DNA from: Fermentimonas sp.
GTDB lineage: Bacteria > Bacteroidota > Bacteroidia > Bacteroidales > Dysgonomonadaceae
Direction of reading: 5' to 3'
DNA length: 64,000 nt
Assembly: GCA_015478775.1 (NCBI GenBank)
Contig: JADMKP010000010.1
Span: forward strand, 1-64,000
Notes under the pieces: generated by a model
Seen by the model: the letters and a program-made list of their open reading frames with translations, nothing else
Told to the model about the DNA's origin: nothing
Database searches by the model: none
Shown: positions 61,345-64,000 of the stretch, piece after piece
How the letters are laid out: every line of letters begins with the position of its first letter
Position numbering within the stretch: position 1 is the stretch's first letter
Position numbers and translations under genes: made by a program

Positions 61345-61728
61345 TTAACAACAATACAAACTCTCCGAATTCTTTTGCAAAGAAAAAGAAGAAAAGTAAA
61401 TCCAGATATGCATATCATCTAAATTCCACACACGGGGTAGGGATATAGATGTTTTTCCGTCTGAACGAACTGCAATCCCCGAAAAACTATCAACAAAGTT
61501 TTCTTTAGCATTAAAAGCTACAATATTAATCTGGTCGTTATCTTTTGCCGTACCTTTTGAGGTTGCATTTTGCTCGTCCCACGAGAATGTTACAGAATTA
61601 TTTTTATCATCCAACTCAAACATAATATTTGTAGGCAATTGCAAATCGCCCTCTGCAATCTTAATCTTACTATAATCGAGAGTGAAATCAGGATATTCAC
61701 CCACGATAGCTTCACGATATGCTTGGAG
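61345..61728 (-). pseudogene. DUF6266 C-terminal fragment
   Basis: An open frame of ~128 codons (LQAYREAIVGEYPDFTLDYS at its start, on the minus strand) that matches my recollection of the C-terminal half of DUF6266, a Bacteroidetes family of unknown function: YSKIKIAEGDLQLPTN, SVTFSWDEQNA, KDNDQINIVAFNAKENF, and a final HIWIYFSSFS. The N-terminal half is missing. It joins directly, in another frame, to an IstA N-terminal fragment near 61725, so the gene is broken. The GTG at 61704 is only a formal start; the natural start is lost. Confidence 0.7.
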
Positions 61729-62120
61729 CCTTTAACCCTCATATATTTACGATGAAAGTGTTCCATAAACTGAGTGTAGCTGTATGGATTGATTACATTG
61801 GCAGCATAATCATTGTAATGATACTGAAACGTGAAACCGGGATGACTGCGAGCTGCATTGATATGCTCTAAATAGAGCATTAAATCATCATGACGTGAGA
61901 CATCAATGGTGGTTTTACTGGTAAAAAGTTCGTTTAATCGGCTCTCATCAAAGTTTAACAGCTCACCAATACTGTAGCCACTTGAGTTAAACTGCTTAAC
62001 GTAAGTATTAACAGTATTACGAGATATACCCAGTATCGCACCAATACCGCGGTTACTAAAACCGTCTTTAAGCAAAACTAAAATTTGTTTTATATCCATT
62101 GGATCAAGTTTATTTGCCAT
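61725..62120 (-). pseudogene. istA: IS21-family transposase IstA, N-terminal fragment
   Basis: The first 132 codons of an IS21-type IstA. The start at 62120 gives MANKLDPMDIKQILVLLKDG, followed by a helix-turn-helix (GFSNRGIGAILGISRNTVNTY), and further INAARSHPGFTFQY and FMEHFHRKYMRVKGS. Full IstA is roughly 500 residues with a DDE integrase core, which is completely absent. The sequence changes after codon 132 into the DUF6266 fragment, and no istB is found. The frame continues for ~44 meaningless residues. It is a deletion or recombination product. Confidence 0.85.
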
Positions 62121-62164
62121 ATCGTATCCCTTTTTTGGGGACAAGATAACTTGATCTTTTCAAA

Positions 62165-62254
62165 GTGGCACAAATCGAACCGTGAAAAGTGGCACGGTTT
62201 GAACCGAAAACACTGGCACACATAGACCGATATCACTGGCACAAATCAAACCGT
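62165..62254. repeat. Terminal multiple repeats of the IS21-type element
   Basis: Four similar ~18-20-base units begin at 62165, 62189, 62213 and 62236, about 24 bases apart, each of the type (G/C)TGGCACAAATCGAACCG. They lie 45-134 bases upstream of istA. IS21-family ends carry such repeated transposase-binding sites. The outer edge of the element is therefore near 62254. Confidence 0.7.
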
Positions 62255-62472
62255 TATATCCACTATTATTTATTACTGGTTGTGAATCTTCTATTGATAC
62301 TTTAAACAATGAAGTAGAAGGAGAAATAGAATTTGAAATAAAAGGGGAGAAAGAAGTAAAAGAAGTAAAAGAAGAGAAAGAAGAAGATCACACTAATGGT
62401 AATTCAATTGAAGATTGGGAGGTGGATGCTGATTCGACAGTTTATGAGTTGAAGCCGAGTGGGAAGGGGTAG
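62255..62472 (+). pseudogene. 5'-truncated lipoprotein gene next to the IS end
   Basis: An open frame runs from the IS end to the stop TAG at 62470-62472 with no start codon near its beginning. It reads PLLFITGCESSIDTLNNE, in which FITGC is a lipobox and the C is at 62281. The rest is highly acidic and lysine-rich (EKEVKEVKEEKEEDHTN) and ends DSTVYELKPSGKG. The missing part is only the basic N-terminus and part of the signal core. The IS therefore entered or was joined inside the signal sequence. The family is unknown. Confidence 0.6.
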
Positions 62473-62639: not shown

Positions 62640-62884
62640 TTTCGTAAGGATATACGAATGTTATAAATCGGGTATATACGAATGTTGTATATTCATTGCG
62701 TAAATAACACGTTGTAGGCAAGCCAGACGAACAGAATAAATGAAGATTACGAAAGAAATGTATTTTTATTTTTTTGCCAACGCTCAGGAAAACAATTTTG
62801 CCAACGCACAAATGGCACATTTGGTTTTTCCAACGCACAAGCCAAACGAAAAAACCAAAAGAGCCATTTTTTTGCCAACGCACT
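62640..62884. repeat. Repeat-rich gene-free stretch before the vWA gene
   Basis: The direct repeat TATACGAATGTT occurs at 62651-62662 and 62675-62686. A 15-mer of the type TTTTGCCAACGCACA occurs four times (62772-62786, 62796-62810, 62825-62839 and 62870-62884) with one or two changes. An imperfect inverted repeat (62814-62829 with 62850-62865) is nested within. No credible gene is present from 62473 to 62943. Confidence 0.65.
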
Positions 62885-62943
62885 GAATAAGAATGAATAA
62901 TTGAAAAGAAGAAAAAAATAGTAAATTTTAAAATTAAATAAAT

Positions 62944-63621
62944 ATGGAAGAAACAGGATTAATTATTGACAAACCGGAAGTGCCAAGAACTTTTCATCAG
63001 TTGGGTATTTTAGTATTAGATGGCAGTGGCTCTATGAGTGCAACTGGAAGACAACAATTAACAAAAGCCCAGGAAGTAGAAATGGGAATAAAAGAAATGT
63101 TCTCTCGATTTGATGCAAGTAGAGTCAAAAACAACTTTTCTTTTTCTTGTATAAAGTTTGACACTTCCTCTACGGTAACATTGCAACCAACAGCATTCCA
63201 AGACCTTGATTATTTTAGTGAAGATTTTAATCCTTTAAACGGAAAAGGTAAAGGAACACACATTTTTGACGCTTTAAATGAAGCGAAAAAAATAGCGGAA
63301 GATTTTCTTGCAAATGCTCCGGCAGATGGTGTAAAACATAGTGTCGTAATTCTTTTGATGTCTGACGGTTTGTGTTTTCAACCAGAAACAACAATTGCTG
63401 TTGCGGATAACATAAAACAAAACAATCAAATTGTAATTGCATCAGCATACTTTGCTGAAATAGGGAATAGCGATAGTGAGGCAAATGACACCAAAAACTT
63501 GCTTCAAGCAGTTGCTACAAATCCTGTTTCTTACTATGCAACTGTTTATGACGGGGAAACTTTAAGAAAATTCTTTGAACGTTCTATCAGTCAATCTTCA
63601 GGTATTGGAAAAATAAACTAA
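62944..63621 (+). CDS. vWA-domain protein, TerY-like
   Basis: A 225-residue cytoplasmic protein made almost wholly of one von Willebrand A domain. The metal-ion-dependent adhesion site is complete: DGSGS with D26, S28 and S30, T105 in GKGTHIFDA, and D141 in LLMSDGLC. No signal peptide or membrane segment is seen. It is similar in size and layout to TerY proteins. The next gene, a PP2C-like phosphatase, starts 7 bases after the stop, so they form an operon. In TerY-P triads a serine/threonine kinase is the third member; whether one follows is not visible here. The partner substrate is unknown. Confidence 0.88.
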   Translation: MEETGLIIDKPEVPRTFHQLGILVLDGSGSMSATGRQQLTKAQEVEMGIKEMFSRFDASRVKNNFSFSCIKFDTSSTVTLQPTAFQDLDYFSEDFNPLNGKGKGTHIFDALNEAKKIAEDFLANAPADGVKHSVVILLMSDGLCFQPETTIAVADNIKQNNQIVIASAYFAEIGNSDSEANDTKNLLQAVATNPVSYYATVYDGETLRKFFERSISQSSGIGKIN

Positions 63622-63628
63622 TTATTCG

Positions 63629-64000
63629 ATGATTTCAAATTTACTAATCAAGTCAATAAGCCCGAAATTAAAAAATGAGGACTTTATTGAAACTGTTATA
63701 AATGTCGAACTAAATTTTAAGGCTATCGTTTTAGGCGATGGAATTGGTTCACATTATAAACCTGATGAAGGTTCGGAGTTTTGCGTCAAATCATTAAAGA
63801 AACATCTTGAAAACTGCAAAAGCCTTAATGGGATAGATTTCAAAGAGTTATTCAAGAAAGTTCATTCCGAACTAAAAGAAAATTTCAGCAATATTGAAGA
63901 TGATACAATAGATAAAACCCAAGCTTATGGCACAACGTTAATTTGTGCTATTGAACTTGAAGACAAATACATTGTTGCGTATCTTGGAAATGGCTCTGCG
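63629..64000 (+). CDS. PP2C-type protein phosphatase, N-terminal part (runs off window)
   Basis: An open frame begins at ATG 63629 and stays open for 124 codons to the last base. It starts MISNLLIKSISPKLKNEDFI. The metal-binding aspartate is in IVLGDGIGSHYKPDEGSEF, corresponding to the DGxGG motif of PPM/PP2C phosphatases. The second motif is in AYGTTLICAIELEDKYIVAYLGNGSA, matching GTT...GDS-type. Two expected C-terminal motifs lie beyond the window. It is co-transcribed with the vWA gene. The likely function is to remove phosphate from serine or threonine in a signalling module with a kinase. Confidence 0.8.
   Translation, partial: MISNLLIKSISPKLKNEDFIETVINVELNFKAIVLGDGIGSHYKPDEGSEFCVKSLKKHLENCKSLNGIDFKELFKKVHSELKENFSNIEDDTIDKTQAYGTTLICAIELEDKYIVAYLGNGSA

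Follow-up and report, generated by a model that had tools for sequence, protein, structure and literature searches.

A vWA-PP2C-kinase operon with membrane genes

The window, by which we mean the whole 64,000-nucleotide stretch analyzed, lies on a 501-kb contig (C10, genome G000) whose numbering continues that of the window, and it closes within an operon of five genes, all on the forward strand (Table 1). The first gene had been predicted to encode a vWA protein with a complete MIDAS and no export signal. Consistent with this, the protein scores above the curated Pfam cut-off and carries the D-x-S-x-S motif as DGSGS at residue 26, the threonine in GKGTH and the aspartate in LMSDG; the latter two residues were picked by eye, and the motif definition also appears in an excerpt of PMC11090510. 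Kyte-Doolittle analysis, at the cut-off used, found no hydrophobic segment in the vWA, PP2C or kinase proteins, in agreement with the absence of an export signal from the vWA protein. As anticipated, the PP2C gene begins 7 bases after the vWA stop, at 63629. The window holds its first 124 residues (63629-64000) and the gene ends 468 bases further on, its frame remaining open to the stop after 279 residues, which disposes of the possibility of a frame broken just past position 64000. We take the GDG, STDG and DDDT motifs of this protein to be its metal-binding aspartate motifs. Whether the pair belonged to a triad or to a two-gene form had been left undecided; the gene that follows, 11 bases after PP2C, encodes a kinase, and the arrangement is a triad. 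The kinase, small multi-TM and DUF4407 genes overlap in series, and all five operon frames are intact. The small multi-TM protein gave no Pfam match and showed weak likeness to DUF4407 proteins by phmmer, for which the E-values given here are those of small ORF sets. The operon is larger than the gene pair of the original prediction: its triad is TerY-P-like and is fused to a membrane module, Ig-DUF4407, that is exchangeable.

The repeats that had been predicted just upstream of the operon are real, and lie between it and an HTH-bearing remnant that is presumably IS21-like. Insertion-sequence-like remnants flank the operon region on both sides, and the family names that we attach to them are assumed. 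A Pfam scan of ten proteins around the operon recognized no Ter genes. A NERD-domain protein (PF08378, 4.9e-25) is encoded on the reverse strand at C10 76030-76758 (L002:15030-15758), downstream of McrBC and of a stretch that was read by eye as transposase-like.

A defence-type gene was sought beyond position 64000, and the McrBC pair was found there; its McrB has a weak PF00910 match, taken as the AAA domain of McrB. The triad could be the regulatory arm of this McrBC, as in CoCoNuT, whose types II and III-A, according to an excerpt of PMC11090510, very often include TerY-P, and McrB and McrC do lie downstream on the same strand. Nevertheless, they start 790 bases after DUF4407, across a gap that holds the DUF6804 gene; Pfam detected neither a HEPN domain nor a CnuH-type helicase in the eight proteins encoded from vWA through McrC; and the 27 related loci described below, with flanks of up to 10 kb, gave no McrB or McrC match at E<=1e-3. 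We consider this regulatory-arm reading the least probable of those weighed here.

Table 1 Features of the operon region and of related loci. Positions without a prefix refer to the window; C10 is the contig that bears it.
Feature	Position	Strand	Remarks
HTH-bearing remnant	61590-62144	-	
24-nt direct repeat units	62162-62256	.	Upstream of operon, outside unit
16-nt direct repeat units, TTTTGCCAACGCACAA type	62772-62885	.	Upstream of operon, outside unit
vWA protein, 225 aa	62944-63621	+	PF00092, E 1.1e-10
PP2C_2, 279 aa	63629-64468	+	PF13672, E 1.9e-12 at full length
Ser/Thr kinase with Ig-like tail, 661 aa, TTG start	C10 64480-66465	+	Pkinase PF00069, 1.3e-12; without catalytic-loop Asn (sequence reading)
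Small multi-TM protein, 221 aa	C10 66401-67066	+	Operon gene 4
DUF4407 membrane protein, 509 aa	C10 67047-68576	+	DUF4407, 1.7e-37
DUF6804 gene	C10 68758-69045		Between DUF4407 and McrBC; probably outside unit
McrBC pair (McrB, McrC)	C10 69367-72446	+	Probably outside unit
Kinases without catalytic-loop Asn at other loci	L124:9406-11001; L129:9774-11795		Sequence reading
Ubiquitin-like core loci	L108:3281-11413; L109:918-8912; L110:542-8828; L112:1515-10109		JAB/E2-like/ThiF/Clp-AAA before Ig-DUF4407
Hairpin-rod RNA copies	L098:4980-5249; L103:4925-5190; L115:5007-5272; L112:1269-1508; L108:3000-3207; others		Conservation

The kinase and its Ig-like tail

The window kinase keeps the HxD and DFx aspartates and has an alanine at the expected catalytic-loop asparagine. 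Both aspartates are retained in 11/11 kinases read, and the asparagine position is occupied by alanine in L124, serine in L129 and asparagine in the other eight; the change, being common to L124 and L129, is thus a subfamily trait, and the window kinase and these two relatives may be weak or inactive. The lost asparagine, together with the insertion-sequence-like remnants on both sides, would fit an operon that has decayed or lost activity within an accessory region, a reading that we consider very unlikely given the five intact frames and the sharing of the substitution with relatives.

Beyond residue ~355, the kinase continues into a tail homologous to tails and to separate proteins at other loci. 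The best PDB matches of the tail profile were the Ig-domain proteins neurofascin and titin, at E 0.011 and weaker, and "Ig-like" is used here as a reasoned label for these weak sequence matches, not for a solved fold. At five loci of a single core type (L097, L099, L104, L113 and L115), the Ig protein is unfused to the kinase and begins with a W-C-C-N-C-C type zinc finger, which we take to be RanBP2-like and which L097 matches only in relaxed form.

Recurrence of the system across Bacteroidota

DUF4407 relatives (E<=1e-5) were present in 26 of 393 genomes of the order, including the window's own. Twenty such loci were fetched, some on short contigs; vWA and PP2C genes adjoined DUF4407 in two of them (L041 and L049), and the Ig tail was found only in L049. 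Searching with the Ig tail matched 17 of 395 genomes of the phylum, again including the window's own, and yielded a second full system in Flavobacterium ichthyis (G375), whose intact operon (L091) has seven genes, a second kinase and a PLD gene among them; at 12 of the 15 other genomes, the loci gave no vWA, PP2C or DUF4407 match. The vWA search matched the window's own genome alone among 395 genomes of the phylum, and vWA is therefore a poor probe by itself.

Three DUF4407 sequences, run against 84,980 species genomes, returned 27 loci, all of them Bacteroidota by record title. A phmmer census of these loci (E<=1e-3, flanks up to 10 kb) placed the Ig and DUF4407 genes next to each other in 26. 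Genes for vWA, PP2C-like and kinase proteins are present in 20 of the 27, a proportion that is not an unbiased or population rate because all three queries came from triad loci. The remainder consists of four loci with a ubiquitin-like core, which the queries had not seeded, two cut by the contig end (L102 and L107) and one lone DUF4407 gene (L094). Two loci carry two handles each (L049 = L115; L076 = L091). The vWA gene of L100 is cut by the contig end, the first kinase frame of L114 is split, and L129 has the triad and the Ig tail with no DUF4407. Proteins of their own kind were among the queries for L092, L093 and L096; when these were left out, vWA and kinase were still found and PP2C was not. 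All 22 vWA proteins read have the DxSxS/DxTxS part of the MIDAS. The DUF4407, vWA and PP2C proteins were all unmatched in plasmids, as were vWA and DUF4407 in viral contigs. L041:5670-14617, which overlaps L089, contains a row of genes for a dynamin-like protein, an N-extended DUF4407, a DA1-like zinc protein, vWA, PP2C and a kinase-vWA fusion.

For 15 of the 20 triad loci, the core type includes a protein whose identity as a PP2C is weakly supported. Pfam matches back the PP2C assignment in the window, L049, L041 and L129; no family was assigned to the two proteins scanned from L076/L091 and L096, whose PP2C-like designation comes from position, SDG/DD motifs and weak profile likeness. In profile comparisons, the window group reached a probability of 40% (E 3e-4) against the L090 kind and 1% against the other weak type, and the L090 kind reached 95% against the L092 kind; since the Pfam-supported L115 type also reaches only 1% against the window group, the profile test is a weak one. 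The vWA of the L090 kind reached 93% against the window group.

In the ubiquitin-like loci, the E2-like protein was called by motif and position only, with no Pfam match, and JAB scored below the Pfam cut-off; a PDB sequence search gave no match for the vWA, E2-like or JAB proteins. The operon of L108 also encodes a 103-residue protein (L108:4786-5094) that ends in Gly-Gly and has a repeated "NPxTxxFExVxxGS" type motif, by eye resembling the start of the adjoining Ig protein. This protein is a candidate conjugation substrate or tag.

Cores are exchanged over a shared Ig-DUF4407 pair

The core relative considered was L124, the best of the 7 genomes of 395 in the class (the window's own included) that the PP2C search matched. 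Between the window and L124, identity is 186/225 (83%) for vWA, 157/279 (56%) for PP2C and 257/353 (73%) for the kinase domain, compared with 50/142 (35%) for Ig and 129/431 (30%) for DUF4407. Between the window and L090, from Chitinophaga, the corresponding core values are 52/208 (25%), 68/221 (31%) and 74/256 (29%), BLAST finding no significant similarity for any of the three, and the output values are 146/297 (49%) for Ig and 266/463 (57%) for DUF4407. The mosaic break falls inside the kinase gene, where identity flips at residue ~360; the nucleotide match of the window with L124 ends at L002:4537, that is, at kinase residue ~353.

Core exchange was further followed on a DUF4407 tree of 42 rows. 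The L090 core kind, the largest, requires nine label changes, eight of them forced by starred branches, the L115 kind requires five, and the L092, window and ubiquitin-like kinds require two each. Placing all nine labels, three of which (ordinary, cut and lone) are not cores, takes 17 changes, against a minimum of 8 and a shuffled mean of 25.3, with a count as low in 0/200 shuffles; because core labels cluster more than in the shuffles, exchange is frequent but not free. Cores differ between the closest sisters, L098 and L104 (branches 0.065 and 0.07), and likewise between L115 and L116, both pairs sitting on starred branches, and between L099 and L112, on an unstarred one (86/67). At the DNA level, L098 and L104 can be aligned in two places only, immediately before the first gene and across DUF4407, a pattern that would be expected from cassette exchange between conserved flanks. 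On these comparisons, the operon is modular, with the Ig tail and DUF4407 traveling together and the cores being exchanged.

A hairpin-rod RNA upstream of Bacteroidales operons

In 16 Bacteroidales loci, a conserved RNA of ~280 nt that forms a long hairpin lies directly upstream of the operon, whichever core follows. It has a trailing U-run, and in L099 and L101 it touches the called gene start. The fold of L103:4915-5215 has a free energy of -120.8 kcal/mol (z -7.0). Over the 250 nt that precede the first gene, z ranges from -2.6 to -7.0 in 15 such loci, and 0/52 random stretches fell below -3; for these upstream-element analyses, the first-gene start of L110 and L116 was set by eye to a later codon. 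An alignment of 11 sequences has 67 pairs, 97.0% paired, of which 16 are changed on both sides, compared with a mean of 6.6 in shuffles and at most 7 in slid structures, the structure under test having been predicted from the same alignment.

A covariance model, R1, run on 51 sources recovered the 11 training loci and five new ones (L101, L108, L109, L110 and L113), and it matches all four ubiquitin-like loci. There was no R1 match in the window, L002, L003, L090-L097, L124-L129 or 15 sources from other DUF4407 loci, nor in L100, L102 and L107, three loci that start inside the operon. Across the order, R1 matched 52 of 374 genomes, many in multiple copies. Among 20 further copies read by eye, seven head defence-like genes (helicase, restriction, Hsp70 with kinase), five head lipoprotein or acyltransferase genes and eight were left unclassified. 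The one copy searched in Rfam, that of L098, had no match near the gathering score (best E 0.43), and no title or abstract opening found in a literature search describes such an RNA. The most likely identity of this RNA is a general leader, a terminator-type element or a small RNA of accessory operons. We rejected it as part of the window's own system, since R1 matches neither the window nor its genome and the upstream z there is only -2.17.

Defence genes in the flanks

Ten proteins were picked by eye for Pfam scanning, seven from the flanks of related loci and three from beside other DUF4407 genes. The seven proved to be TIR_2 (L097), HsdM and GmrSD (L095), Cas9-type RuvC/HNH (L096), RVT_1 (L093), AAA_21 (L115) and AAA_16 (L098). 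Furthermore, 122 flank proteins from 28 loci (at most three per side, each of at least 150 aa, the window McrBC included) matched 351 PADLOC families at 1e-10, compared with 25 for 98 control proteins around 19 other DUF4407 genes. These counts refer to heavily overlapping families, not proteins, any one family deriving from at most 3 of the 122, and the control flanks also match defence (Cas10, Cas6, REase_II and SoFic), so the contrast is suggestive only.

At L128:8771-11339, on the reverse strand, a vWA-like gene (phmmer 3.5e-7, no Pfam match) and a PP2C-like gene are followed by a caspase-like gene (PF00656, 1.3e-14) in the place of the kinase, and they adjoin genes that by eye look like type I restriction.

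DUF4407 structure and other contexts

An AlphaFold2 model of the L090 DUF4407 protein, built with 26 sequences, has a mean pLDDT of 82.9 and a pTM of 0.44, the low pTM making the overall shape unreliable. The protein is predicted to be nearly all helical, with three N-terminal helices of membrane-spanning length followed by long helices and, further on, one more membrane-length helix and a long C-terminal helix. Foldseek against the PDB returned 0 matches at E<=0.001, with TM-scores below 0.4 in the 50 matches listed, and we therefore make no fold claim. Among the best 60 of 82 matches, a PDB sequence search retrieved mostly coiled-coil proteins (best E 0.0014).

Outside the triad system, DUF4407 genes of L039, L042, L045 and L051 adjoin genes that by eye are SiaC-like or DUF6272-like, for which Pfam identified SiaC (PF09345) and DUF6272 at L045:7794-8757 and a SpoIIE-type phosphatase at L042:5841-7043. 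Other Bacteroidales DUF4407 genes (within L037-L052) adjoin CheB/CheD/response-regulator-like genes, again by eye. Judged by these neighborhoods, DUF4407 is recurrent beside phospho-switches outside the triad system too, which argues that it is not a dedicated killer; among the titles and abstract openings found that name DUF4407, none gives it a defence role. Such contexts would suit signaling in the reverse direction, in which the DUF4407 coiled-coil would be an envelope sensor and the triad would report membrane stress, with a function that is not primarily defence. However, cores are often exchanged over the same Ig-DUF4407 pair, defence genes flank several loci, and a ubiquitin-like core takes the place of the triad in 4/27 loci, a turnover that housekeeping signaling would not usually show. 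We regard the sensor reading as unlikely, if still credible.

Proposed mechanism

Starting from gene order, domains and the co-travel of Ig and DUF4407, all of which are read from sequence, we infer a direction of signaling, a phage trigger and a membrane outcome. We put at about an even chance the proposal that the five-gene operon is a two-part conflict system, composed of a soluble core and a membrane output. The core, comprising vWA, PP2C and the kinase domain, would act as a soluble phosphorylation switch in which vWA serves as a metal-dependent scaffold or sensor, the kinase sets the phospho-state and PP2C resets it. The output, comprising the Ig-like tail, the small TM protein and DUF4407, would sit in the inner membrane, with the DUF4407 cytoplasmic coiled-coil as the site at which the Ig tail docks the core. 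Phage infection would be the most likely trigger of the switch, whose altered phospho-state would then open or assemble the DUF4407 complex, and the cell would stop growing or die before phage release. We read Ig-DUF4407 as a membrane output that exchangeable cores have in common, with a role that is probably anti-phage, and the system may be a new kind.

More tentatively, and at somewhat less than an even chance, we propose an undescribed Bacteroidota immune family on a plug-in plan, in which one membrane output (the Ig-like adaptor and DUF4407) accepts exchangeable cores. CBASS are immune systems on such a plan. As a joint proposal, made with the same reserve, the output would join at least three diverged triad cores (the window, L090/L092 and L115 kinds) and an E1-E2-JAB-Clp core, the cores would be swapped as cassettes bounded on the upstream side by a conserved element and on the other by the Ig-DUF4407 pair, and the upstream element in Bacteroidales would be the hairpin-rod RNA, which may hold the system silent. 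If this is true, phosphorylation triads and ubiquitin-like conjugation, which are usually treated apart, converge on one membrane partner; DUF4407 gains a testable function; and the refitting of one effector to new triggers is explained. The natural swaps (the window versus L124 and L090, L098 versus L104, and L115 versus L116) are suited to domain exchange.

Comparison with known systems

The original prediction was that the locus looks like part of a TerY-P triad. According to an excerpt of PMC11090510, TerY-P consists of vWA, PP2C and a kinase whose tail is a zinc ribbon or an OB fold, and a commentary (PMC7699616), also seen in excerpt, describes it as active against T7-like phages. The window operon likewise unites a vWA protein with a MIDAS, PP2C and a Ser/Thr kinase, and this part of the prediction stands. 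The kinase tail, in contrast, is Ig-like: no CxxC motif occurs in the window kinase, neither a zinc ribbon nor an OB fold was recognized, and the homology of the tail to Ig-like tails speaks against an OB-fold variant. In addition, the operon runs on into the small TM protein and DUF4407, two membrane genes that are absent from the excerpted description of the triad. Because the kinase tail lacks the TerY-P feature, we class the operon as a variant and not as a TerY-P member. A TerY-P triad of the known anti-phage type that stands alone, with the membrane genes as ordinary neighbors, would agree with the gene content and with the tight packing of the genes. Against this stand the fusion of the Ig tail to the kinase and the joint occurrence of the Ig tail and DUF4407 in 26/27 loci with widely diverged cores; moreover, the window vWA matched no PADLOC family at E<=1, in a library that may or may not hold TerY-P models, and the window PP2C matched a SIR2 model only, weakly. 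We judge a stand-alone triad decidedly unlikely. A literature search on TerY-P, DUF4407, anti-phage vWA, PP2C and kinase combinations, and JAB/Bil returned no title or abstract opening that describes an operon of the window type.

CoCoNuT types II and III-A resemble the window in the proximity of a triad to an McrBC pair, but the window region has no recognized CnuH/CnuE-type genes, and McrBC went unmatched in the 27 related loci. A likeness to MADS comes from MAD6, which is both the best PADLOC match of the window kinase (E 2.3e-12) and its sole NCBIfam match (1.7e-6); however, the kinase scores 26.9 bits against an NCBIfam cut-off of 460, and the match covers the kinase domain only. A single further MADS match turned up among the nine proteins scanned, a weak one (2.6e-4) of McrB with mad8. 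Finally, L108, L109, L110 and L112 are akin to bacterial E1-E2-JAB operons in carrying JAB, E2-like, ThiF and Clp-like AAA proteins, whereas the window differs from these operons in that its core is not the ubiquitin-like one.
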